Below, in pieces: positions 9,371 through 20,852 of a stretch of 64,000 bases of DNA; within the stretch, counting starts at the first letter, position 1; each line of letters opens with the position of its first letter. The stretch spans positions 230,383 through 294,382 of the forward strand of contig NZ_JANYMP010000007.1 of assembly GCF_025061645.1 (NCBI RefSeq). Reading direction: 5' to 3'. A program made the position numbers and the translations under genes. Source of the stretch: Umezawaea endophytica. GTDB lineage: Bacteria > Actinomycetota > Actinomycetes > Mycobacteriales > Pseudonocardiaceae. The notes below the pieces were generated by a model that did no database searches, had not been told where the DNA came from, and saw only the letters and a program-made list of their open reading frames with translations.

Positions 9371-9385
9371 TGACAATGATTACCA
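9371..9385. promoter_or_regulatory. Candidate Zur (zinc uptake regulator) box
   Basis: TGACAATGATTACCA matches the actinobacterial Zur consensus as I recall it, TGANAATGATTNTCA, at 12 of 13 fixed positions. It also sits in a conspicuously AT-rich island, centred 55 bp upstream of the GTG at 9433. This is where a repressor site controlling the following operon would lie. If so, the ATG at 9376 inside the box cannot be the translation start. Binding is inferred; no second box was seen in the window. Confidence 0.7.
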
Positions 9386-9432
9386 TTCCCCCGAGGCTGC
9401 CGACTGGCCCGCCGCCGGGAAAAGGGGAATGC

Positions 9433-10695
9433 GTGGCGCACCTGCTGATGATCGAGAGCTGGGTCGGCGCGATGAGCTCGCTGCTGCCCAGAGCCATCCG
9501 CGAGACCGGGCACCGCTTCACGTTCCTCACCCGCGACCTGCACCACTACCTGCGCTCGGCGCCGGGTGCGGGCCCGCACCCGCTGCTGGCGGCGGAGAAC
9601 GTGCTCACCGCCGAGACGAACGACGTGCCCGCGCTGCTGACCCACGTGGAGCGCCTGCACGAGGTGCTGCGCTTCGACGGCGTGATCACGTCCTGCGACT
9701 ACTACCTGTCGACGGTCGCCGCCGTCGCCGCGCACCTCGGCCTGCCGGGGCCCGATCCCCGTGCCGTGGACCGCGCCTACCGCAAGGACCTCACCAGGGC
9801 GGCGCTGCGGGACGCGGGCGTGCCCGGCCCGCGGTTCGAGCTGGCCGAGGGCTGGTCGGCGACCGCGAAGGCGGCGGCCGGGCTGGGCTATCCGCTGGTG
9901 GTGAAGCCGGTGGACCTGTGCGGCGGGATGCACGTCCGCAAGGTCGTCGACGAGGTCCAGCTCCGGGAGGCCTTCCTGGCGCTGGAGGCGTTCCCGGTCA
10001 ACGCGCGCGACCAGCCGCGCGTGCCGACGGTGCTGCTCGAAGAGCTGCTGACCGGCCCGGAGGTGAGCGTCGAGACGGTGACCGCCGACGGCGTGACACA
10101 CGTGGTCGGCGTGACGGACAAGAGCCTCGCGGGCGAGCCGTGGTTCGTCGAGAGCGGGCACATGTTCCCGGCCGACCTCACGACCGCCGACCGCGACGCG
10201 GCGGTGGGCACGGCCGTCGCGGCGATCGAGGCGCTCGGCCTGGACAGCGCGGTGGCGCACACCGAGGTCAAGCTGACCCCCGACGGCCCGAGGCTGATCG
10301 AGGTGAACCCGCGGCCTGCGGGCAACCAGATCACCGAGCTGATCCGCCGGGTGACGGGTGTCGACCTGCCCGCCGTGTTCGCCCAGCTCGCGGTGGGTGA
10401 AGCGCCGTCGCTGACGCCCGCGGGCACCGGCGTGAGCAGCGCCGCCATCTCGTTCCTGCTGCCCCCGCGCGCGGGACTCGTCGCGGGTGTCGACGGCGTG
10501 GACGCGCTCGACCGGGACCCCGGTGTCGTGGACTGGTCGGTCAAGCCTCCAGGCCACCGCGCGGGCGACCCCACCAGCAACAACACCTACCTCGGCCACG
10601 TGGTGGTCACCGACGTCGACGGCACGGGCGCGCGGGCCAAGGCCGAACGGGCGGTCGCCGGGCTGACCGTGCGGTACGCGGAGGAGCCCGCGTGA
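9433..10695 (+). CDS. ATP-grasp ligase (amino-acid ligase-like), first gene of the Zur-boxed operon
   Basis: 420 aa from GTG 9433, chosen because AAAGGGGA lies ~4 nt upstream; the in-frame ATG at 9376 has no ribosome site and lies in the Zur box. N-terminal Rossmann-like domain, then the ATP-grasp core: YPLVVKPVDLCGG (nucleotide loop, with the Lys that contacts ATP), VLLEELLTGPEVSVE, and the Mg-binding EVNPRPAGNQI near residue 295. Such enzymes join a carboxylate to an amine through an acyl phosphate. With the PLP and epimerase genes downstream, an amide bond between amino-acid units is the likely chemistry. First of eleven genes joined by 4-nt overlaps. Confidence 0.85.
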   Translation: MAHLLMIESWVGAMSSLLPRAIRETGHRFTFLTRDLHHYLRSAPGAGPHPLLAAENVLTAETNDVPALLTHVERLHEVLRFDGVITSCDYYLSTVAAVAAHLGLPGPDPRAVDRAYRKDLTRAALRDAGVPGPRFELAEGWSATAKAAAGLGYPLVVKPVDLCGGMHVRKVVDEVQLREAFLALEAFPVNARDQPRVPTVLLEELLTGPEVSVETVTADGVTHVVGVTDKSLAGEPWFVESGHMFPADLTTADRDAAVGTAVAAIEALGLDSAVAHTEVKLTPDGPRLIEVNPRPAGNQITELIRRVTGVDLPAVFAQLAVGEAPSLTPAGTGVSSAAISFLLPPRAGLVAGVDGVDALDRDPGVVDWSVKPPGHRAGDPTSNNTYLGHVVVTDVDGTGARAKAERAVAGLTVRYAEEPA

Positions 10696-11525
10696 GCGTG
10701 CGGTCGACCCACCAGCCCGTCCCGTCCGTCGCCGACCTGGTCGCGCTGGTCCGCGCCGGAGCGCTCGGCCCGGACCCTGCGTCCACCACCGTGAGCGTCG
10801 GTTTCACCACCAGCCAGGGCGCGCGGCACGCGTCCAGGGGCCGGTCGTACCGCAACACCGTGGTGAGCCTGCGGATCGACCAGGCCGTCGGGTCGTGCGC
10901 GGTCGAGCCGGGCGACCTCACCGACGCCGACGTGCACGACTGCGTCGGCGCGACCGCCGCGGACCTGCTCGACCACCCCAGCCGGGCCATCCGGACCGCC
11001 GCGCTGGACGCGTACCTGATGAGCGCGCACCCGCACGAGCGGTCCGGCGCGCGGCAGGTCGTCGTGGGCGCGGGCTCGTCGCTGGAGAAGTCCCTTGCCC
11101 GCGCGTCGGCCGTGGTCGACCTCCTCGAAGCCGCACCCGGCCACCGCGTCCTCGTCGTCGGGGTGGTGAACTCGCTGCTGCACCACCTGCGCGCCCGCGG
11201 TCTGCGGTACGTGCCGTGTGACCTCAAGGGCGGCCGGACCGAGTGGGACGAGCCCGTCGTCACGGACGCGCTCGACGCGGTGGAGCACTGCGACCTCGTG
11301 CTCGTGTCCGGCATGGCCGTGGGCAACGGCAGCTTCGAACCGCTGCTGCGCAAGGCTTCCCTCGCCGAACGGCCGGTCGTCGCGTTCGCCCAGACGGCCA
11401 GCGCCGTGCTGCCGTGGTTCATCGGCGCGGGCGTGACCGCCGTGTCCGCCGAGCCGTTCCCGTTCTTCTGGCTCGACGGCGGCCCGACGACCATCTACCA
11501 GTACCAGCGGGAGCGCGCGTCGTGA
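10692..11525 (+). CDS. DUF364 Rossmann-like protein (putative heavy-metal chelation family)
   Basis: 277 aa. The C-terminal half has the DUF364 pattern: HRVLVVGVVNSLLHHLR (~155-171), then CDLVLVSGMAVGNGSFEPLL and RPVVAFAQTASAVLPWF. Pfam names the family putative heavy-metal chelation, but its reaction is not established. The N-terminal half matches the fold's enolase-N-like domain, with GFTTSQGARHASRGRSYRN. The GTG start overlaps the ligase stop as GTGA. Its place between an ATP-grasp ligase and a PLP enzyme in a Zur-boxed operon supports a metallophore-related role, either biosynthetic or metal handling. Confidence 0.8.
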   Translation: MSVRSTHQPVPSVADLVALVRAGALGPDPASTTVSVGFTTSQGARHASRGRSYRNTVVSLRIDQAVGSCAVEPGDLTDADVHDCVGATAADLLDHPSRAIRTAALDAYLMSAHPHERSGARQVVVGAGSSLEKSLARASAVVDLLEAAPGHRVLVVGVVNSLLHHLRARGLRYVPCDLKGGRTEWDEPVVTDALDAVEHCDLVLVSGMAVGNGSFEPLLRKASLAERPVVAFAQTASAVLPWFIGAGVTAVSAEPFPFFWLDGGPTTIYQYQRERAS

Positions 11526-12583
11526 CACCACGCCGGAACACCCACCTGCTCGACCTGCTCGGAAAGACCCCGGTCGTCCGGATCGACACGCCGCTCCCCC
11601 ACCGGCACAGCGGTTTCTGGGCGAAGCTCGAAGGGCTGAGCGCGGGCGGCATGAAGGCCAGGCCCGCCGTCGCGATGCTGCTGGCGGCCCGCGACCGGGG
11701 CGAACTGCGGCCGGGCGCCGTGGTCGTGGAGTCGACCAGCGGCACCTTCGGCATCGGACTCGCGTTCGCCTGCCAGGTCCTCGGCCACCCCGTGGTGCTG
11801 GTGGTGGACGACGAGCTGGAGCCGTCGATGCGAGCCATGCTGCGCGCCCACGGCGCCCGGCTGGAGGTCGTCGACCGCCCGCACGAGACCGGCGGCTGGC
11901 AGCGGGCCCGGCTCGACCGCCTGCGGTCGGTGCTCGACGACCTGCCCGGCGCCTACTGGCCGGACCAGTACAACAACCCCGACAACCCCAGCGGGTACAC
12001 CGGTCTGGCCAGGGAACTGGCCGAGCAACTCGACCGCGTCGACGTCCTGGTGTGCAGCGTGGGCACCGGCGGCCACAGCGCGGGCGTGATCTCGGCGCTG
12101 CGCCGCTACTGGCCGCGCGTCCGGCTCGTCGGCGTGGACGCGGTGGGGTCGACCATCTTCGGCCAGCCCGCGCGGTCACGGGTGATGCGCGGGCTGGGCA
12201 GCAGCATCTACCCGCGCAACGTGGCCTACTCCGAGTTCGACGAGGTGCACTGGCTCGGACCGGTCGAGGTCGTGGACGCGTGCAGGCGGCTGGCCAGGGA
12301 CTGCTTCGTCTCGGGCGGCTGGAGCACCGGCGCGGTGGCGCTGGTAGCCGCGTGGGTGGCGCGGGTCGAGACCGGCGCGAGCGTGGTGACGATCTTCCCG
12401 GACGGCCCGCACCGGTACCTCGGCACGATCTTCGACGACGACTTCTGCGCCGAGCGCGGCCTGCTGGGCACCGCGGCCGACCGGCCGATGGAGATCGGCC
12501 ACGCCGAGGCCGTCGAGGTCGGCGGCTGGGCGCGCTGCCGGTCCGTGGTCGACCCGCGGCTGGCCGTGGGTGTGTCCGCGTGA
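11522..12583 (+). CDS. PLP-dependent cysteine-synthase-like enzyme
   Basis: 353 aa, fold type II. Lys45 in AGGMKARPA occupies the PLP Schiff-base position, STSGTFGIGLA is the substrate-binding loop (TSGNTG in cysteine synthases), and VGTGGHSAGV is the phosphate loop. Relatives perform beta-replacement on serine or O-substituted serines; some (SbnA, the EDDS pathway enzymes) make diaminopropionate-type building blocks for metallophores. The N-terminus LLDLLGKTPVVRI fits the family. Start GTG overlaps the DUF364 stop. Likely role here is to make a non-standard diamino acid or amino-linked diacid; the exact product is not readable. Confidence 0.85.
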   Translation: MTPRRNTHLLDLLGKTPVVRIDTPLPHRHSGFWAKLEGLSAGGMKARPAVAMLLAARDRGELRPGAVVVESTSGTFGIGLAFACQVLGHPVVLVVDDELEPSMRAMLRAHGARLEVVDRPHETGGWQRARLDRLRSVLDDLPGAYWPDQYNNPDNPSGYTGLARELAEQLDRVDVLVCSVGTGGHSAGVISALRRYWPRVRLVGVDAVGSTIFGQPARSRVMRGLGSSIYPRNVAYSEFDEVHWLGPVEVVDACRRLARDCFVSGGWSTGAVALVAAWVARVETGASVVTIFPDGPHRYLGTIFDDDFCAERGLLGTAADRPMEIGHAEAVEVGGWARCRSVVDPRLAVGVSA

Positions 12584-13599
12584 AGCTGGGGTGGACGGTG
12601 CGGGGCCTCACCCTGCGGACGCCCCTGCGCATCTCGCGCTCGGTGATGGCCCGGCGGGACGCGGTCCAGGTGGTCGTGGAGCACGACGGCCTGCGCGGTC
12701 ACGGCGAGGTGGTGACGAGCGTCTTCCACGACCTGGACCTCGACGGGATCCTCTTGTCCCTCAACGACTTCCGGGCGCTGGCGGTCGAGTACTCCGCACC
12801 GGGGGCGCTGCTCGCCGACCTGCCGGGGCTCGACCACCCGCCCGGCGTGCTGGCGGCCGTCGACGCCGCCCTGCACGACGTCATCGGCCGGGAGCGCGGG
12901 GTGCCCGTGCACGCGCTGGCCGGGGTTCCACTGTGGACCGACGCGCCGACGGCGTACACCATCGGCATCACCGACCCCGAGGACGCCGCCCTCCAGGCGA
13001 AAGCGCTGGCGGCCAAGGGCTTCACCCTGCTCAAGGTCAAGCTCGGCACGGAGCACGACGTCACCGCCGTGACCGCCGTCCACGCCGCCGCGCCGGGGAC
13101 GAGGCTGCTGCTCGACCCCAACGGCGGCTGGACGCCGGAGCACACCGTGCGGGTCGTCGAGCTGCTCACCGCCGCCGGTGTGGTGGTGGACGCGCTCGAA
13201 CAGCCCATCGCACCCGGTAACCCGGCCGGACTGGCGTGGGTGCGCGACCGGTGCGCCGTCCCGCTGATCGCCGACGAGGACGCGGCGACCGCGGCCGACG
13301 TGCGCGCGCTGGCCGGGCTCGTCGACGGCGTGAACGTGAAACTGGCCAAGTGCGGCGGGATCGGGCCCGCGTTGGAGATCATCTCCGCCGCTCGCGAGAC
13401 CGGTGTGGACGTGATGCTGGGCTGCCTGGTCGCCAGTTCGCTCGGCATCGCGCCCGCCGCGCACCTGTCCGGGCACGCCCGGTGGGTCGACCTGGACGGC
13501 CACCTCCTGCTCGCGGACGACCCGTGGACGGGCCTCGGTGGCGAGGACGGCGTCCTGCGCCTGTCCGGCGCTCCCGGCCTCGGTGTGGCGCCGCGGTGA
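12580..13599 (+). CDS. Enolase-superfamily racemase/epimerase, dipeptide-epimerase-like
   Basis: 339 aa. The muconate-lactonizing subgroup residues are all present: catalytic K-x-K (Lys152/Lys154 in LLKVKLG), metal ligands Asp179 (LLLDPNGGW), Glu207 (DALEQP) and Asp232 (LIADED), and the second catalytic lysine Lys257 (LAKCGG). This set matches 1,1-proton-transfer enzymes such as L-Ala-D/L-Glu epimerase. The C-terminal stretch GCLVASSLG differs slightly from the usual dipeptide-epimerase pattern, so the substrate may be unusual. GTG start overlaps the previous stop. Next to an ATP-grasp ligase, it would invert a stereocentre in the ligated product. Confidence 0.85.
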   Translation: MKLGWTVRGLTLRTPLRISRSVMARRDAVQVVVEHDGLRGHGEVVTSVFHDLDLDGILLSLNDFRALAVEYSAPGALLADLPGLDHPPGVLAAVDAALHDVIGRERGVPVHALAGVPLWTDAPTAYTIGITDPEDAALQAKALAAKGFTLLKVKLGTEHDVTAVTAVHAAAPGTRLLLDPNGGWTPEHTVRVVELLTAAGVVVDALEQPIAPGNPAGLAWVRDRCAVPLIADEDAATAADVRALAGLVDGVNVKLAKCGGIGPALEIISAARETGVDVMLGCLVASSLGIAPAAHLSGHARWVDLDGHLLLADDPWTGLGGEDGVLRLSGAPGLGVAPR

Positions 13600-14789
13600 C
13601 CACGCTGCGCTCGGTGCGGCGGTTCCCGCTGCCCGTCCGGCTGCTGCTGGTCAACCAGTTCGGCGTGAACACCGGCTTCTACCTGCTGATCCCCTACCTG
13701 GCCACGTACCTGGGCGGCGGTCTCGGCCTGTCCGCGGCGACGATCGGCGTGGTGCTGGGGGTGCGCACGCTCAGCCAGCAGGGGCTGTTCCTGGTCGGCG
13801 GCACGGCGGCGGACCGGCTCGGGCCGCGACGGGTGATCATCGTCGGCTGCGCGCTGCGGGCGGTCGGGTTCGGGCTGTTCGCGGTGGGCGAGTCGGTGGC
13901 CGTGCTGCTCGCCGCATCAGTCCTCAGTGGACTCGCGGGGGCGTTGTTCAACCCGGCCGTGCGCGCGTACATCGCCGTGGAGGCGCGGGAAGCCGACCGG
14001 GCCGAGGCCTTCGCGCTGTTCGCCGTCTTCGGCCAGGCCGGGGCGCTGGCCGGACCGGTGCTCGGCAGCGCCCTGCTGCTGTGGGACTTCCGCGTCGCGG
14101 CGCTGGTGGCCGCCGGGATCTTCCTGGTGCTGACCGTCGCGCAGGCCGCCGTGCTGCCCTCCCGGCCGGTGCCCGCGCGACGCGGCACCGTGCTCGGCGA
14201 CTGGCGGGAGTGCCTGGCGAACCGGCGGTTCGTCGCGTTCACGCTCGCGCTGACCGGCATGTTCGCCCTCCAGAACCAGCTCTACCTGGTGCTGCCGCTG
14301 CAAGCCCAGCGCGCCACCGGGTCCGCGAGCGTCGTCGCGCTGATCTTCCTGGTGTCGACGGTCGCCACGCTCGGCCTCCAGGTGCGGATCACCCGCGCGC
14401 TGTCGGCCCGGCGGGCGCGGGGTCCGGCCATCGCGCTCGGGTTGGCGGTCATGGGATCGGGGTTCGTCGCGACGGCCGTGGCCGACGGCGTCGTGCCGGT
14501 GCTGATCGCGACGTTCCTGCTGTCCGTCGGCGTGATGATCGCCCAGCCGTTCGTCTACGAGCTGGTCCCCGGCTTCGGCCGCGACGAGCTGGCGGGCACG
14601 TACTTCGGCATGTTCTACCTCGCCTCCGGTGTGGTGGCGGCGCTCGCGAACGCGGCGATCGGCTGGACCATCGGCGCGGCCGGGTGGCTGACGTCGCCGC
14701 TGTGCGTGGCGATCGGCCTCGTCTGCGCCGCCGGTGTCGCGTGGCTGCACCGCCGTGGAGCACTCACCCGACCGGAGGTCGCGCGATGA
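13596..14789 (+). CDS. MFS transporter, probable exporter of the pathway product
   Basis: 397 aa with about 12 membrane segments. The loop after helix 2 has GGTAADRLGPRRVIIVG, the standard MFS G-x-x-x-D-R-x-G-R-R/K motif. GTG start overlaps the epimerase stop. Metallophore loci such as the staphylopine locus carry one MFS exporter (CntE) beside the ABC importer, and this operon has the same pairing. Export of the product is therefore inferred; sequence alone does not show substrate or direction. The same frame is open upstream to 13236, but that part overlaps the epimerase and is random-looking. Confidence 0.85.
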   Translation: MTTLRSVRRFPLPVRLLLVNQFGVNTGFYLLIPYLATYLGGGLGLSAATIGVVLGVRTLSQQGLFLVGGTAADRLGPRRVIIVGCALRAVGFGLFAVGESVAVLLAASVLSGLAGALFNPAVRAYIAVEAREADRAEAFALFAVFGQAGALAGPVLGSALLLWDFRVAALVAAGIFLVLTVAQAAVLPSRPVPARRGTVLGDWRECLANRRFVAFTLALTGMFALQNQLYLVLPLQAQRATGSASVVALIFLVSTVATLGLQVRITRALSARRARGPAIALGLAVMGSGFVATAVADGVVPVLIATFLLSVGVMIAQPFVYELVPGFGRDELAGTYFGMFYLASGVVAALANAAIGWTIGAAGWLTSPLCVAIGLVCAAGVAWLHRRGALTRPEVAR

Positions 14790-15574
14790 CCAACCTGCTC
14801 ACGGACAACCCCGAGCTGTACGAGCACCAGTTCCCCGACCCCGACCACGTGGCCGCGCGGTTCGTCCACGACCTGGTGGCCCGCTTCGGCGGTGGCCGGG
14901 CCCTGCTCGACGTCGGCTGCGGCACGGGCCGCGACGCCGGGTACCTGGCGCGCGCGGGGTACCGGGTCACCGGGCTGGACAGCTCGGAGCGGATGGTCGG
15001 GCACGCACGGGAACACCACCCGGACGCGGAGTTCGTGCTCGGCGACATGCGGACGTTCGCGCTGGGGCGGCGGTTCGACGTGCTCACCTGCCTGGACAGC
15101 GCCCTGCTCTACAACCACACCAACGCCGACCTCGACGCGTTCCTGACCCGCTGCCGCGAGCACCTGGTGCCCGGCGGGCTGCTCGTCGCCGAGATGCGCA
15201 ACGGCGCGTTCTTCCTGGGCAGCACCGAACTGCTCGACGGCGTCCGCACCAGGACCGTCACCTGGCGGGACGTGCCGTACACCTCGCACACCGAGCTGTG
15301 GATCGACCACGCCGACCAGCTCCTGCGCCGCCGTCGCGCCTGGGAGTGGCCCGGCCAGGACGAGCCGCTGGTGCAGCGCTCGGCGTGGCGGCTGCTGTTC
15401 CCCCAGGAGCTGCGGCACCTGCTCGGCCTCGCCGGGTTCGAGGTGCTGGCCCTGTTCGACCGCCCCGGCCCGCGCACCGACGAGCCGTGGACACCCGACG
15501 CCGATCTGATCACCACCCTGTCCGGGGACCGCCTGCACGTCGTGGCGCGCCTCACCGAAAGGACCCACCAGTGA
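14786..15574 (+). CDS. Class I SAM-dependent methyltransferase
   Basis: 262 aa. Motif I is ALLDVGCGTGRDAGYLA (~38-54), followed by VTGLDSSERMV, FVLGDMRTF and the post-motif region FDVLTCLDSALLYNHT, a standard Rossmann methyltransferase of the small-molecule type. The ATG at 14786 has GGAGG about 9 nt upstream and overlaps the MFS stop as ATGA. Likely N- or O-methylates an intermediate of the pathway, or tailors the final ligand. It is distinct from the carboxyl-methyltransferase-like gene at 8369. Confidence 0.85.
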   Translation: MTNLLTDNPELYEHQFPDPDHVAARFVHDLVARFGGGRALLDVGCGTGRDAGYLARAGYRVTGLDSSERMVGHAREHHPDAEFVLGDMRTFALGRRFDVLTCLDSALLYNHTNADLDAFLTRCREHLVPGGLLVAEMRNGAFFLGSTELLDGVRTRTVTWRDVPYTSHTELWIDHADQLLRRRRAWEWPGQDEPLVQRSAWRLLFPQELRHLLGLAGFEVLALFDRPGPRTDEPWTPDADLITTLSGDRLHVVARLTERTHQ

Positions 15575-17103
15575 CCCTCACCCGCCGAGGTTTCCTCGGG
15601 CTGACAGCCGGGCTCTCGGCCGTCACGCTCACCGGCTGCGCCACCGACGCGCCCGCCCCCGCCGCGGCCGGTCCGCGCGGTGGCGGCAGGCTGCGGGCGG
15701 CGTTCGCGGGCGGTGGCGCCAAGGAGGTGCTCGACCCGCACCTGGCGAACCTGTTCGTCGAGGCCGCCCGGTCCAAGGCGGTGTTCGACAAGCTCGCCGA
15801 CCTCGGCCAGGACGTGTCCGCGCAGCCCCGGCTCGCGGAAAAGTGGGAGCCCAGCGCCGACCTCCTGCGCTGGCGCATCACCCTGCGCGAAGCGGTGTTC
15901 CACAACGGCAAGCCTGTGCGCGCGCAGGACGTGCTGGCCAGCTACGCCCGGATCCTCGATCCCCAGCGGACGTTCCGGGCGAAGTCCAGCCTGTCGCTGA
16001 TCGACCTGCCCAACAGCAGGGCGGTCGACGACCGGACCGTGGAGTTCGCGCTCACGCGGCCGTTCGTCGAGTTCCCCAACGCGCTGGCGGCGTTCGGGAC
16101 GTACATCGTGCCGGAGGGGACGGAGGACTTCACCGCGCCGATCGGGTCGGGCCCGTTCCGCTTCGAGTCGTTCGCCCCCGGCAAGTCGGTGCTGCTCAAG
16201 AGGAACGCGGACTACTGGGAGGGCGCGCCGCACCTGGACGAGCTGGAGTTCGTGATCGCCAACGAGGAGTCGGCGCGGGCGAACGCCCTGCTGGGCGGGC
16301 AGGTCGAGTACGCGCACGACCTCACGCCCACGACCGCGCGCGCCAACACCGGCAGCGACCGGATGACCCTGCACCGCTCGCCGAACAGCGCCGTGCAGTC
16401 GTTCGCGATGAAGGTGGACCGCGCGCCGTTCGACGACCCGGACCTGCGCGAGGCGCTGTTCCTGCTGGCCGACCGGCCGCAGTTGGTGGAGGCGGTGCTC
16501 GGCGGCAGCGGCCAGGTCGGCAACGACCTGTTCGGCAAGGGCTACGAGCACTACGCCGACGACATCCCGCAGCGCGGCCGTGACCTGGACCGGGCGAAGT
16601 TCCTGATCCGCAAGGCGGGCGCGGAAGGGCTGACCGTCAGGCTCGACACCTCCACGGCGGCGGCCGGGATGGTCGAGGCGGCGACGGTGTTCGCCGACCA
16701 GGCCAAGGGGTCCGGGCTGACCATCGAGGTCGTCACGGGCAACAAGGACAGCTACTGGTCGGACACGCTGAAGAACGGGTCGCTGTCGAGCTTCCGCTCC
16801 GGCGCCATGCCGATCGAGACGCACATCGCGCAGCGGCTGCTGTCCGACTCCGGCACGAACGTGACCAAGTGGGCACGGCCAGAGTTCGACGCGCTGTACC
16901 GGAAGGCGGTGTCCACAGTGGACGAGACGGAGCGCGCCGCCGCGTACCGGGAGATGCAGGGTTCCCTGCACGCCCAGGGCGGTTACCTGATGTGGGGCTT
17001 CGCCGACTGGATCGTCGGTACGTCGCCGAACGTCGGCGGCGTCGCGACCGCGCCCGCGAACACCCTGGACTGGGCGCGGTTCGACCGGGTGTGGCTGGGG
17101 TGA
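15571..17103 (+). CDS. ABC transporter family-5 substrate-binding lipoprotein (peptide/nickel/opine type)
   Basis: 510 aa. The N-terminus combines a twin-arginine motif (TRRGFLG) with a lipobox (TLTGC, Cys ~26), so it is a surface lipoprotein possibly exported by Tat. The body is the SBP family 5 fold (EKWEPSADLLRWRITLREAV, then GTYIVPEG and GSGPFRF). The same family includes NikA, OppA and the staphylopine receptor CntA. GTG start overlaps the methyltransferase stop. Together with the two permeases and the fused ATPase it forms a complete importer; uptake of the metal-loaded product is inferred from context. One iterated palindrome copy lies inside at 16911. Confidence 0.88.
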   Translation: MTLTRRGFLGLTAGLSAVTLTGCATDAPAPAAAGPRGGGRLRAAFAGGGAKEVLDPHLANLFVEAARSKAVFDKLADLGQDVSAQPRLAEKWEPSADLLRWRITLREAVFHNGKPVRAQDVLASYARILDPQRTFRAKSSLSLIDLPNSRAVDDRTVEFALTRPFVEFPNALAAFGTYIVPEGTEDFTAPIGSGPFRFESFAPGKSVLLKRNADYWEGAPHLDELEFVIANEESARANALLGGQVEYAHDLTPTTARANTGSDRMTLHRSPNSAVQSFAMKVDRAPFDDPDLREALFLLADRPQLVEAVLGGSGQVGNDLFGKGYEHYADDIPQRGRDLDRAKFLIRKAGAEGLTVRLDTSTAAAGMVEAATVFADQAKGSGLTIEVVTGNKDSYWSDTLKNGSLSSFRSGAMPIETHIAQRLLSDSGTNVTKWARPEFDALYRKAVSTVDETERAAAYREMQGSLHAQGGYLMWGFADWIVGTSPNVGGVATAPANTLDWARFDRVWLG

Positions 17104-18050
17104 GCCTGCGCCGGTACGCCGTCCGGCGGCTCGGCCTCGGCGTGCTCCAGGTGCTGGCCGTGGCGACCCTGGTGTTCCTGCTCGTGCGGGCCCTGCCGGG
17201 CGACGCGGCCGTCGCGCTGGCGGGCGACAACCCCGACCCGCGACGGATCGAGGAGATCCGGGTGGCGATGGGGCTCGACCAGCCTGCGCTGGAGCGCTGG
17301 TGGGCGTGGCTGTCGGGCCTCCCCCGGCTGGACCTCGGCGTCTCGCTGATCTCCGGCAGGCCGGTCTCGGAGTTCCTGCTCGACGGCCTCGGCCCCACGG
17401 CGGCGCTCGCCGTGCTCACCCTCGTGCTGCTCGTCCCGGTGTCGGTGCTGGTCGGCGTGCTGGCGGCGCTGCGCGAGGGCGGTGTGCTCGACCGGGTGCT
17501 CACGGCGATCAGCGTCGGGCTGCACTCGATCCCGGAGTTCGCGCTGGCCATCGTCCTGATCGCCCTGTTCGGCGTCCAGCTCCGCTGGCTGCCGCCGACG
17601 GCCGTCGGCGCGGGCGGGAACCTGCTCGCCCACCCGGAGGTGCTGGTGCTGCCGCTGGTGGTGCTGCTCGCCCGGCCGATCTGCTCGATCAGCAGGCTGG
17701 TGCGGGCGGGGATGATCGACGCGCTGGCGTCGGACCACGTGCGGCACGCCCGCAGGCTCGGGATCGGCGTGACGCGGATCCGGTTCGCCCACGCCCTGCC
17801 GAACGCGCTGGCCCCGGCGGTGCAGCAGGTCGCGCGGACCACCGACTGGCTGCTGGGCGGCGTGATCGTCGTGGAGGCGGTGTTCGTCATCCCCGGACTG
17901 GGCACCGCGCTGGTCGACGCGGTCGCGGGCCGCGACCTGCCGGTGGTGCAGGGGCTCGCGGTCGTCTTCGCCGTCACCACCGTGCTGGTGAACCTGCTCG
18001 CCGACCTGGCCGCGTTCCGGCTGGCGCCCCGATCGGCGGGGCTGGCGTGA
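17100..18050 (+). CDS. ABC transporter permease, DppB/NikB type
   Basis: 316 aa. N-terminus RRYAVRRLGLGVLQVLAVATL and FLLVRALPGD are the family start; the ATPase-coupling loop RHARRLGIGVTRIRFAHALPN follows near residue 220. About six membrane segments. GTG start overlaps the lipoprotein stop by 4 nt. It is the first of two permeases that form the channel of the importer encoded at 15571-20304. Confidence 0.88.
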   Translation: MSLRRYAVRRLGLGVLQVLAVATLVFLLVRALPGDAAVALAGDNPDPRRIEEIRVAMGLDQPALERWWAWLSGLPRLDLGVSLISGRPVSEFLLDGLGPTAALAVLTLVLLVPVSVLVGVLAALREGGVLDRVLTAISVGLHSIPEFALAIVLIALFGVQLRWLPPTAVGAGGNLLAHPEVLVLPLVVLLARPICSISRLVRAGMIDALASDHVRHARRLGIGVTRIRFAHALPNALAPAVQQVARTTDWLLGGVIVVEAVFVIPGLGTALVDAVAGRDLPVVQGLAVVFAVTTVLVNLLADLAAFRLAPRSAGLA

Positions 18051-18823
18051 GGGCCGTCGGCGGTCTGCTGGTCGTCATCCCGCTGGCGCTCGCGCTGCTC
18101 GGGCCGCTGGTCGTCCCGGACGAGCTGACCAGGGGTGCGCCGTTCGCGGCGGACCACCTGCTGGGCACCGACTTCGTCGGCCGGGACGTGTGGCACCAGG
18201 TGCTCGCGGGCGGTCGGACGGTCGTGCTCGTCGCGCTGCTGGCGACGCTCGGGTCCTACGCCGTCGGCGTGCCGTGGGGCGTGCTCGCGGCGACGTCGCG
18301 GCTCCGGCTGGTCGACGAGCTGGTGATGCGGCCGCTGGACCTGCTGCTCGCCGTGCCGTCGCTGCTGGTGCTGATCCTGGTCGCGGCCATCGCGGGCCAG
18401 GGGCTGGCGGTGCTGGTGGGCGTGGTCGTCCTGGTCAACTTCCCCGACGTGGCCAGGCTGTCCCGCGCCGCCGCGCTGGAGATCGCCGGGCGCCCGGCGC
18501 TGGAGGCGATGCGGATGCAGGGCGAGTCGTGGTGGCGGACGTCGATCGTCTACACCGGGCGGTCGATGCTCCGCACCGTGGCGGCCGACGTCGGCACCCG
18601 GCTGACCAGCGCCCTGTACCTGGTGGCGTCGGCCAGTTTCCTCGGTGTCGGCGTGCCGCCCGACGCCGCCGACTGGGCCGTCATGGTCGACCGCAACCGC
18701 GGCGGCCTGTTCCTCCAGCCGTGGGCGGTCGTCGTGCCCGCGCTGCTGGTCGTGTCGCTGTCGATCGGGCTCAACCTGGTGTTCGACCGCGCACTGCGAA
18801 CCCGTTCGGAGGTCCGGGTGTGA
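18047..18823 (+). CDS. ABC transporter permease, DppC/NikC type
   Basis: 258 aa, a little short for the family because the N-terminal cytoplasmic stretch is reduced. HLLGTDFVGRDVWHQVLAGGR is the DppC signature after the first helix. The coupling loop lies near MRMQGESWWRTSIVYTGRS, and SASFLGVGVPPDAADWAVMV is the usual C-terminal element. GTG start overlaps the partner permease. Second channel subunit of the importer. Confidence 0.87.
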   Translation: MRAVGGLLVVIPLALALLGPLVVPDELTRGAPFAADHLLGTDFVGRDVWHQVLAGGRTVVLVALLATLGSYAVGVPWGVLAATSRLRLVDELVMRPLDLLLAVPSLLVLILVAAIAGQGLAVLVGVVVLVNFPDVARLSRAAALEIAGRPALEAMRMQGESWWRTSIVYTGRSMLRTVAADVGTRLTSALYLVASASFLGVGVPPDAADWAVMVDRNRGGLFLQPWAVVVPALLVVSLSIGLNLVFDRALRTRSEVRV

Positions 18824-20304
18824 CCCCCGTGGTGCACGTCGAGGACCTGCGAGCCGTCGCGGGCGGGACCGTGCTGCTGGACGGCGTGAGCTTCGCGCTG
18901 GCGGCGGGCCGGGTGCTCGCGCTGGTCGGCGCGTCCGGCAGCGGCAAGACGACCACCGGTCTCGCGCTGCTCGGTGAGCACGCGCCGGGCGTCGTCGTGA
19001 CCGGCCGGGTCTCGGTGGCCGGGCGGGTCGGGTTCGTCCCGCAGCACCCGTCGAGCGTGCTCAACCCCGTCCGCCGGATCGGCGGGGTGTTCCGGGAGAT
19101 CGCCGCGGCGCGCGGGGGTCAGCACCTGGTCGCCACGGCGTTGCGGCGGGCACGGGTGCCCGAGGAGCTGCTGCGCCGGTTCCCGCACCAGCTCTCCGGC
19201 GGGCAGCAGCAACGGGTGGTGCTCGCGCAGGCGCTGGTCGGCGACCCGGCGGTGCTCGTGGCCGACGAGCCCACCACCGGTCAGGACCCGATCACCCGCG
19301 CCGAGGTCGTGGACGAACTCGCGGCGGTCGTGGCGCAGGGCGTGGCCGTCGTGCTGCTCACCCACGACCTGGACGTCGTCCGGGCGCTGGCCGACGAGGT
19401 CGTGGTGCTGCGCGGGGGCCGGGTCGTGGAGGCGGGCCCGGCCGACGACGTGCTGACCCGGCCCCGGCAGGAGTACACGCGCGCCCTCGTCGCCGCCCAG
19501 CCTCGGGTCACCGTGCCCTCCGAGGCCCCGGACACCGTGCCACGGCTGGAGGTCCGCGACCTGACCGCGACCCACCGCCGGGCCACCGTCCTGCACGGGG
19601 TGGACGTGGCGGTCGGCGCGGGCGAGTGCCTGGCCGTCGTCGGGCGGTCCGGGAGCGGCAAGACCACCCTCGCCCGGTGCGTCGCCGGGCTGCACGAGTC
19701 CCGCACCGGTGACGTGCTGCTCGACGGCCGGGGGCTGGCCCGCTCGCTGCGCCGCCGCTCCAGTGCCGACCTCGCGGCGGTGCAGTACGTGTTCCAGGAC
19801 GCGCGGGGGTCGTTCGACGAGCACCGGAGTGTGCTCGACCAGGTCGCCCGCACCGCCGTGCGGCTGCGCGGAACGTCCACTTCGGACGCTCGACGGGGCG
19901 CGCTGGACGCGCTGGCCGGGGTCGGGCTGGACGAGTGCACCGCGGCCCGGCGCCCGGCGGGCCTGTCCGGTGGCGAACTCCAGCGCGCCGCGCTCGTCCG
20001 GGCTCTGCTCGCGCGCCCGGACGTGGTGGTCTGCGACGAGATCACCTCCGGCCTGGACACCCTGACCCAGGCGGCGCTGCTGGACCAGCTCGCCGACCTG
20101 CGCGCCGCGCACGGCTGCGCGCTCGTGCTGATCAGCCACGACCTCGGCGTCGTCGCCCGGCTCGCGGACCGCGTCGCGGTGCTGCACGAGGGCCGCGTCG
20201 TCGAAGCGGGCCCGGCCCGCGCCGTGCTCGGCTCCCCCACCCACCCGGTGACCACCGGCCTGCTCGGCAGTGCGGGCCGACGAACAGAGGAGAAGCGGAA
20301 GTGA
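18820..20304 (+). CDS. ABC transporter ATPase with two fused nucleotide-binding domains (DppD-DppF fusion)
   Basis: 494 aa holding two complete ATPase domains. The first has Walker A GASGSGKTT (~41), signature LSGGQQQRV and Walker B VLVADEPT; the second has Walker A GRSGSGKTT (~273), signature LSGGELQRA and Walker B VVVCDEIT. In most oligopeptide/nickel importers these are separate proteins, although fusions are known. It energises the permease pair upstream. GTG start overlaps the permease stop as GTGA. Confidence 0.9.
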   Translation: MTPVVHVEDLRAVAGGTVLLDGVSFALAAGRVLALVGASGSGKTTTGLALLGEHAPGVVVTGRVSVAGRVGFVPQHPSSVLNPVRRIGGVFREIAAARGGQHLVATALRRARVPEELLRRFPHQLSGGQQQRVVLAQALVGDPAVLVADEPTTGQDPITRAEVVDELAAVVAQGVAVVLLTHDLDVVRALADEVVVLRGGRVVEAGPADDVLTRPRQEYTRALVAAQPRVTVPSEAPDTVPRLEVRDLTATHRRATVLHGVDVAVGAGECLAVVGRSGSGKTTLARCVAGLHESRTGDVLLDGRGLARSLRRRSSADLAAVQYVFQDARGSFDEHRSVLDQVARTAVRLRGTSTSDARRGALDALAGVGLDECTAARRPAGLSGGELQRAALVRALLARPDVVVCDEITSGLDTLTQAALLDQLADLRAAHGCALVLISHDLGVVARLADRVAVLHEGRVVEAGPARAVLGSPTHPVTTGLLGSAGRRTEEKRK

Positions 20305-20852
20305 CCAGGTACCACCGCGAAGTCGGCCCCTACGAGGTCCGGCCCGCGACCGAGGCGGACCTGCCGGGCGCGCGCAGCGTCATGCTGGACACCTTCTACC
20401 ACGAGTTCGGCTACGGCTACCGGCCCGAGTGGCACGCCGACGTGGTCGACCTGGCCGGGGCGTACCTGGTCCCCGAACGGCACGCGCTGTTCGTGGCGAC
20501 CAAGGGCGACGAGGTCGTGGCCACCACCGGCGTCCGCTCGACCGCGCCGAAGAGCCCGCCGCACCCGGCGTGGCTCGCCGAGCGATACCCGTCCGGACCG
20601 ACCGCGCAGCTCTTCCGCGTGTACGTGCGGCCCGAGCACCGCCGCTGCGGCCTGGCGAAGGCGCTCGTGGCGCTGGCGACGGAGTTCGTCGCCGACATCC
20701 CGAGCTACGAACGCCTGTACCTGCACACCGACACGCGGATCGAGGGCGCCGAACCGTTCTGGCGGTCGGCGGCCACCGAAGTCCACGACAACCGCGACGG
20801 CGACCCGATCAGCTTCCAGACCGTGCACTTCGAGATCCCGCTGGCCCGGTAG
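20301..20852 (+). CDS. GNAT-family N-acetyltransferase, last gene of the operon
   Basis: 183 aa. GNAT motif A is visible as LFRVYVRPEHRRCGLAKALV (acetyl-CoA pyrophosphate-binding R-x-x-G-x-A, ~100-119). GTG start with GGAG upstream overlaps the ATPase stop as GTGA, the tenth such junction in a row. It may acylate an amine in the product, or detoxify or inactivate it on return. The 3' end overlaps the convergent membrane-protein gene by 44 bp. Confidence 0.82.
   Translation: MTRYHREVGPYEVRPATEADLPGARSVMLDTFYHEFGYGYRPEWHADVVDLAGAYLVPERHALFVATKGDEVVATTGVRSTAPKSPPHPAWLAERYPSGPTAQLFRVYVRPEHRRCGLAKALVALATEFVADIPSYERLYLHTDTRIEGAEPFWRSAATEVHDNRDGDPISFQTVHFEIPLAR

Follow-up and report, generated by a model that had tools for sequence, protein, structure and literature searches.

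What would a bacterium make with eleven genes that stand behind a single zinc-type operator and encode their own exporter and importer? The question is raised by a stretch of 64,000 nucleotides from contig NZ_JANYMP010000007.1 of Umezawaea endophytica (hereafter, the window), in which eleven plus-strand genes follow one 15-base box at positions 9371–20852 (Table 1). A first-pass annotation had read this locus as a Zur-like box followed by genes running from an ATP-grasp enzyme to a GNAT (Gcn5-related N-acetyltransferase) enzyme, and had proposed a zinc-regulated metallophore system with its own exporter and importer but no nonribosomal peptide synthetase (NRPS). The box (score 13/15) and all named genes are present in the order first listed, and the proposal stands, in outline, as a candidate. 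Judging from sequence, we consider it probable that the operon makes, exports, and re-imports a new non-NRPS small zinc chelator under zinc starvation. The operon would then represent a metallophore system whose biosynthetic core is undescribed and which likely has a cobalt sister.

Conservation of the operon

Each of the ten gene junctions, as read from the coordinates, is a 4-nt stop/start overlap, so that the operon reads as one translationally coupled unit. The cluster proteins were compared with Pfam and NCBIfam profiles and with solved structures, using a family search threshold of E = 0.001.

DUF364, the domain of the second gene product, was searched for in 200 genomes of the family and matched in 79 of them. 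Forty DUF364 loci were examined first (two each from genomes G052 and G099); these comprised 20 loci of the window's kind (type A), 7 of a second kind (type B), and 13 of a third (type C). The full window-type order and the ten-gene core were found in all 20 type A loci. In every one of these, the best-scoring site of the leader starts 52 to 63 nt before the ATP-grasp match, with a score of at least 12/15 in 19 loci and 10/15 in L039.

Relatives of the window's pyridoxal phosphate (PLP) enzyme, which resembles SbnA, number at least 585 in named genomes. We analyzed the best 80, which are at least 69% identical to the window PLP protein over the best segment. Their hosts include Saccharothrix, Lentzea, Actinokineospora, Streptoalloteichus, Planomonospora, Nonomuraea, Frankia, Saccharopolyspora, Micromonospora, Actinoplanes, Kitasatospora, and many Streptomyces. 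Among these best 80 of at least 585, the whole ten-gene core is present in 75 loci; the exceptions are L114, L139, L146 (masked bases), L151, and L158 (stops at contig end). Around each gene start, the region between −250 and +20 nt was tested for the box with a threshold of 12/15. Such a box stands at the ATP-grasp gene in 63 of the 77 scorable loci. For the other ten genes together, 4 of 716 stretches have one, two of them preceding the solute-binding protein gene and two the GNAT gene. The same gene order, annotated by domain only (e.g., “dipeptide epimerase”), also occurs on plasmids of Streptomyces angustmyceticus and Rhodococcus sp. ZPP. Together, the 20 type A loci, the named loci, and the two plasmids bear out the conserved gene order that the first-pass annotation had suggested looking for in actinomycetes. 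At a threshold of 1e-15, DUF364 had no match in two genomes of the window's own genus, which makes the distribution of the operon patchy.

Evidence for zinc control

The box, TGACAATGATTACCA, starts 62 nt upstream of the start codon of the ATP-grasp gene, which is GTG and is preceded by AAAAGGGG. In 500 single-base shuffles of the 300-nt leader, no site equalled the score of the box against TGAWAATNATTWTCA. When this leader was aligned with those of ten near relatives, the box was the only clearly conserved block besides the ribosome-binding region. By eye, the box also agrees at 10 of 11 specified positions with tGaNNatSatNNtCa, the motif derived from ChIP data for Zur of Streptomyces coelicolor (PMC5472717).

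The strict box pattern occurs at two places in the genome, the second of which (L063) has no zinc gene by eye. A looser palindrome occurs at 18 places, compared with 3 for a reversed control, and its context was inspected by eye at 15 of the 18. Three of these 15 have a zinc context, namely the operon box itself, znuA, and a CobW-like/ribosomal-protein locus; none was seen at the rest. The znuA palindrome lies 49 nt upstream of the predicted start. The CobW-like gene (L072, about 925–2570) faces an S18 gene and, by eye, an L28 gene, and it has two 11/15 candidate boxes, the second lying 30 nt upstream of the first. Genes such as znuA and those of CobW-like and ribosomal proteins are the typical company of Zur sites. 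Taken together, Zur control of the operon is supported mainly by the conservation of the box before the operon and by its fit to the Streptomyces motif, and less by the weaker boxes that zinc genes elsewhere in this genome carry.

Ribosomal protein L33 was also considered as a landmark for Zur; the sole copy found is, by eye, the zinc-ribbon form and was of no use.

A sister operon behind a cobalamin riboswitch

Type B operons (7 of the first 40 loci) combine DUF364 with an SbnA-like enzyme and a major facilitator superfamily (MFS) transporter and have no ATP-grasp, epimerase, or methyltransferase gene. In all seven, a cobalamin riboswitch (RF00174; 90–103 bits, gathering score 31.5) precedes the DUF364 gene, with its 3′ end 144 to 222 nt upstream of the start. 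Eleven more loci were then chosen without regard to their leader, on the criterion that their DUF364 identity was within the span seen in the first seven; G046, G079, and G152, which have similar DUF364 matches, stayed outside this sample. All 11 proved to be of type B, and all 11 have the riboswitch, which thus stands before DUF364 in 18 of 18 type B loci (L041, L043–L046, L048, L060, and L192–L202). A family-5 importer adjoins 13 of the 18 operons.

The riboswitch was found in none of ten type A loci (the window, L022, L026, L034, L038, L047, L163, L171, L227, and L228) and in none of nine other DUF364 loci (L042, L055, L181, L179, L185, L186, L191, L229, and L230); no Rfam RNA reached its gathering score anywhere in the 64-kb window. 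Conversely, the first seven type B loci have no Zur-type box of at least 12/15 either within 300 nt or between −1500 and +2000 nt. Of the later 11, 10 lack such a box within 6 kb upstream; the exception, L196, carries a 12/15 site at −3761. Types A and B occur together in at least four genomes: G052 (L034, L060), G063 (L038, L192), G100 (L036, L202), and G196 (L040, L196).

Cobalamin switches are known to govern B12-independent enzymes as well. Transporters of the Opp/Nik type that lie behind a cobalamin switch have been read as cobalt systems in earlier work (PMC2667541). Cobalt is what the type B operons most simply point to, which is not proof.

A third type of DUF364 locus

In type C (13 of the first 40 loci), DUF364 is accompanied by a more distant PLP enzyme; one of these loci, L042, belongs to the window's own genome, and further type C-like loci turned up in other families. 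The pairing of DUF364 with a PLP enzyme thus recurs in three operon architectures. The importer of L042 is of the siderophore type (PF01497 and PF01032). Siderophore-type importers are also annotated in two type C plasmids, and an ABC (ATP-binding cassette) ATPase was the only importer match seen in the remaining type C loci. A box of at least 12/15 was found upstream in 12 of the 13 loci. This evidence is weaker than that for type A owing to the long stretch searched, which extended as far as 6.8 kb upstream and included 2 kb downstream.

In two type C loci, on plasmids of Streptomyces melanogenes and Tsukamurella, the DUF364 and PLP genes are separated by a gene for a GHMP kinase (L230, 6813–7856; L229, 7979–8899), and this arrangement would fit a phospho-amino-acid donor.

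At L042 (contig C24, about 6.5–12.6 kb, reversed), a Fur/Zur-like palindrome separates the importer genes from a divergent MFS gene, and NRPS-like genes, identified by eye, adjoin the DUF364/PLP pair. A mixed locus, L185, combines a family-5 importer with a type C-like PLP enzyme and DUF364; it has no Rfam riboswitch, and no Zur-type box of at least 12/15 in the 6 kb upstream of DUF364.

Identity of the PLP enzyme

The first-pass annotation had called the PLP enzyme cysteine-synthase-like; its closest relative is SbnA. The closest NCBIfam model is TIGR03945 (266 bits, with a cut-off of 350), and the closest solved structures are those of SbnA (5D84–5D87). SbnA carries out a β-replacement that joins an activated serine to the amine of another amino acid.

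We built a tree of 46 PLP proteins, including the best PLP matches of 17 of 20 SbnB loci from relatives, which stood in for the Amycolatopsis japonicum locus discussed below. Type A and type B enzymes group together (87/96) as sisters (type A, 88/93; type B, 81/86). The SbnB-linked enzymes (from 17 of 20 loci) form a separate branch (100/98) and are 32 to 39% identical to the window enzyme. Type C enzymes make up a distant clade on a very long branch (100/100). Joins between long branches were flagged by the tree program, and the deep order of the tree is accordingly unsure.

A proposed pathway and its alternatives

When zinc is plentiful, Zur bound at 9371–9385 would silence the operon. When zinc is scarce, DUF364 and the SbnA-like enzyme would assemble an aminopolycarboxylate core. 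By analogy with its family, the PLP enzyme would take an activated serine and put the amine of another amino acid in place of the leaving group on its side chain, which would yield a multidentate aminocarboxylate. The core might then be completed by DUF364, for which we know of no demonstrated reaction, either through another condensation or through a redox step that acts on the PLP product. The zinc-type elaboration could then follow, in which the ATP-grasp ligase would add an amino acid, the epimerase invert a center, and the methyltransferase methylate the product. Finally, the MFS transporter would export the product, and the family-5 ABC importer would return the zinc complex. The presence of an exporter and an importer in one operon was counted in favor of a chelator.

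The comparison with type B invites a wider proposal, to which we give an even chance: DUF364 and its PLP partners would define a new class of metallophore in which the regulator decides the metal, zinc under Zur and cobalt under the riboswitch. Type B would then be a two-enzyme cobaltophore system with its own synthesis, export, and import.

Several observations weigh against these proposals. The SbnA-, epimerase-, and ligase-type matches all fall under their equivalog cut-offs, the sisterhood of type A and type B enzymes has moderate support (87/96), and the distant type C enzymes may catalyze a different reaction. The 18 type B loci all come from one family and are not independent. No box of at least 12/15 was found at 14 of the 77 scorable named loci. 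Within the genome itself, the znuA box scores only 10/15, weaker than the operon box, and the box at the CobW-like gene scores 11/15 and overlaps the predicted start codon.

These last two boxes lead us to trust the zinc chelator slightly less and, slightly more, the idea that another Fur-family regulator (of iron, nickel, or manganese) binds the operon box, so that the ligand would serve another metal. Boxes of the Fur family are alike, related ones are bound by other members, and the canonical zinc-gene boxes of this genome differ from the operon box in detail as well as in strength. Still, the operon box fits the Streptomyces Zur motif closely, and it shares with the znuA box a palindrome that is six times as frequent in the genome as its reversed control; we regard another metal as unlikely. 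The operon might instead yield a zinc-regulated dipeptide-type antibiotic or signal, similar to bacilysin, that the ABC system imports for some other purpose. The ATP-grasp enzyme is indeed related to BL00235 and BacD, and a ligase, an epimerase, and an MFS transporter are typical of bacilysin-like loci. This idea, to which we assign a small chance, sits poorly with the constancy of the family-5 importer, each component of which was found in 76 or 77 of the best 80 named loci. The type B sisters also speak against it: lacking ligase and epimerase, they retain the exporter and, in 13 of 18 cases, an adjacent importer under a cobalamin switch.

A third alternative is that the product is ethylenediaminedisuccinic acid (EDDS) or a very close relative, made by a route of the aes type (an SbnA-type and an SbnB-type enzyme) with added tailoring. 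EDDS is an actinomycete zincophore of the right kind, Zur-controlled and non-NRPS, and the operon does hold an SbnA-like enzyme. However, the window has no SbnB/ornithine-cyclodeaminase gene, and the SbnB-linked PLP enzymes lie on their own branch of the tree at low identity, which makes this route quite improbable. Least of all do we expect a catabolic operon for the uptake and breakdown of a foreign chelator or peptide. The importer and the epimerase could serve breakdown, but an ATP-grasp ligase, an SbnA-like synthase, a methyltransferase, and an MFS exporter suggest synthesis and secretion, and the chance of a catabolic role appears very slight.

Relation to known systems

[S,S]-EDDS of Amycolatopsis japonicum has been described as a Zur-controlled non-NRPS zincophore. 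Its cluster, the aes genes, includes an SbnA-type enzyme. An SbnB-type dehydrogenase beside the SbnA-type enzyme is a defining feature of the aminopolycarboxylic metallophores of the EDDS type. As described, the EDDS system resembles the window operon in its Zur-type control and non-NRPS nature; its SbnA-type enzyme has a putative counterpart in the SbnA-like enzyme of the window, whose TIGR03945 match lies under the cut-off. In contrast, the window operon is without SbnB, carries DUF364, ATP-grasp, epimerase, and methyltransferase genes, and has an SbnA-like protein that falls off the SbnB-linked branch. The aminopolycarboxylic cluster of Rhodococcus likewise has a different gene set, with an SbnB-type dehydrogenase included (PMC13206832). 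An aminopolycarboxylic-acid class exists in antiSMASH 7 (PMC10320115), which might flag the operon.

The staphylopine, pseudopaline, and bacillopaline (cnt) systems place an MFS exporter and a family-5 ABC importer around a small biosynthetic core. The likeness of the transport half to staphylopine-type loci, pointed out in the first-pass annotation, is borne out by matches to PF07690, PF00496, PF00528, and PF00005; the importers of cnt-type systems have been described as family-5 (Opp/Nik) transporters, as is that of the window. Unlike the cnt systems, the cluster has no match to CntL (nicotianamine-synthase-like) or CntM (opine dehydrogenase), and by gene content the operon is not of the staphylopine type. 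As the first-pass annotation had also stated, no nicotianamine-synthase, opine-dehydrogenase, or NRPS family matched any of the eleven cluster proteins at E = 0.001; the same was true of SbnB-type families. The genome has four PF02423 (SbnB-type) genes, on contigs C4, C10, C16, and C34, and the contig of the window (C7) has none. Staphyloferrin B synthesis (SbnA/SbnB) is related in that, among solved structures, those of SbnA come closest to the window PLP enzyme. It differs in that the window has no SbnB, the cluster proteins gave no match to an NRPS-independent siderophore (NIS) synthetase in Pfam or NCBIfam profiles, and the box is of the zinc and not the iron type.

Aspergillomarasmine A consists of amine-linked amino acids and in this respect resembles the chemistry proposed here. 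We know of no DUF364, ligase, or epimerase in its pathway. This compound, which differs from the window's putative product in its fungal origin, is reported to be specific for Zn, Ni, and Co, a metal range that would fit a chemistry able to serve both zinc and cobalt.

A protein of the same Pfam family as the window DUF364, Dhaf4260, has a solved structure, and a role in condensation or hydrolysis during siderophore-like synthesis was proposed for it from its cleft and its ABC-transporter neighbors (PMC2954201). That work did not place the protein in a pathway; here we propose partners for DUF364 and two metal regimes. The first-pass annotation had recognized no described pathway with this exact gene set, and we found no description of it among the matches listed in the open literature, a scope that excludes preprints and most subscription papers. 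In the open texts retrieved for DUF364, none shows the proposed pathway. Cobalt terms of the cobaltophore kind had zero occurrences in the open literature searched, in which “nickelophore” does occur. The likeness to SbnA, the EDDS precedent, and the sister family under the cobalamin riboswitch had been passed over in the first-pass annotation.

If the proposed pathway is correct, DUF364, a structurally solved family for which no assigned reaction was found, would gain a role. Metallophores would also gain a route beyond those of NRPS, NIS, and opine type; at least 75 named actinomycete loci would carry it, and the true number is probably far higher. With zinc and cobalt operons paired on a common core, one could test directly what metal a small chelator selects, including which of the added enzymes shift the metal. 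Likewise, a cobalt chelator that bacteria secrete and take up again by a system of their own would, if real, add a new element to the competition for cobalt and B12.

Gene content and surroundings

Table 1. Features of the operon, with positions in the window
Feature	Positions	Strand	Evidence
Zur-type box TGACAATGATTACCA	9371..9385	+	13/15 vs TGAWAATNATTWTCA; 10/11 specified positions of Streptomyces Zur motif (by eye)
ATP-grasp ligase, L-amino-acid-ligase type	9433..10695	+	PF18603 LAL_C2 5e-19; PF13535 1e-18
DUF364 enzyme, putative core-forming partner	10692..11525	+	PF04016 34.8 bits, gathering cut-off 23 (passed)
SbnA-like PLP enzyme, putative C–N bond-forming β-replacement	11522..12583	+	TIGR03945 266 bits; SbnA 5D87 1.4e-46; tree
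Enolase-superfamily dipeptide/N-acylamino-acid epimerase	12580..13599	+	PF13378 3e-36; NF042940 DgcA 224 bits, cut-off 400 missed
MFS transporter, putative exporter	13596..14789	+	PF07690 1e-34
Class I S-adenosylmethionine-dependent methyltransferase	14786..15574	+	PF13649 4e-19
Family-5 solute-binding protein	15571..17103	+	PF00496 4e-72; closest NCBIfam model of Opp5A/NikA type, under cut-off
ABC permease, OppB/NikB type	17100..18050	+	PF00528 and PF19300
ABC permease, OppC/NikC type	18047..18823	+	PF00528
Fused double ABC ATPase (NikD/NikE or CntD/CntF type)	18820..20304	+	PF00005 in two stretches
GNAT acyltransferase, looser member	20301..20852	+	PF00583 1.6e-11; homologue near operon in 18/20 type A loci

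The top solved relative of the ATP-grasp ligase is the L-amino acid ligase BL00235 (3VOT), and BacD is also related. In dipeptide epimerases, the functional motifs are a KxK motif, three metal ligands, a second lysine, and a DxD motif, and this signature is present in the window enzyme. Its motifs LKVKLG, LLLDPN, LEQP, IADED, NVKL, and VDLDG line up with those of 3IJI and 4GFI; the DxD position reads DFDA and DLDA in the aligned 1JPM and 3JVA. For the double ATPase, the top-scoring NCBIfam models are NikD and CntF/CntD, all under their cut-offs.

A promoter scan around the box and a terminator scan after the last gene found nothing. ARAGORN called a tRNA-Ala inside the MFS gene (13877–13966), which is probably false, as Rfam gave no match. 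The GNAT gene varies in position and strand near type A and type B operons, being the last gene or divergent upstream, and it is nearby in many loci. In the window, the gene downstream of GNAT lies on the opposite strand, and the 5′ flank of the operon carries an isochorismatase-domain gene and, by eye, a methyltransferase-like gene.

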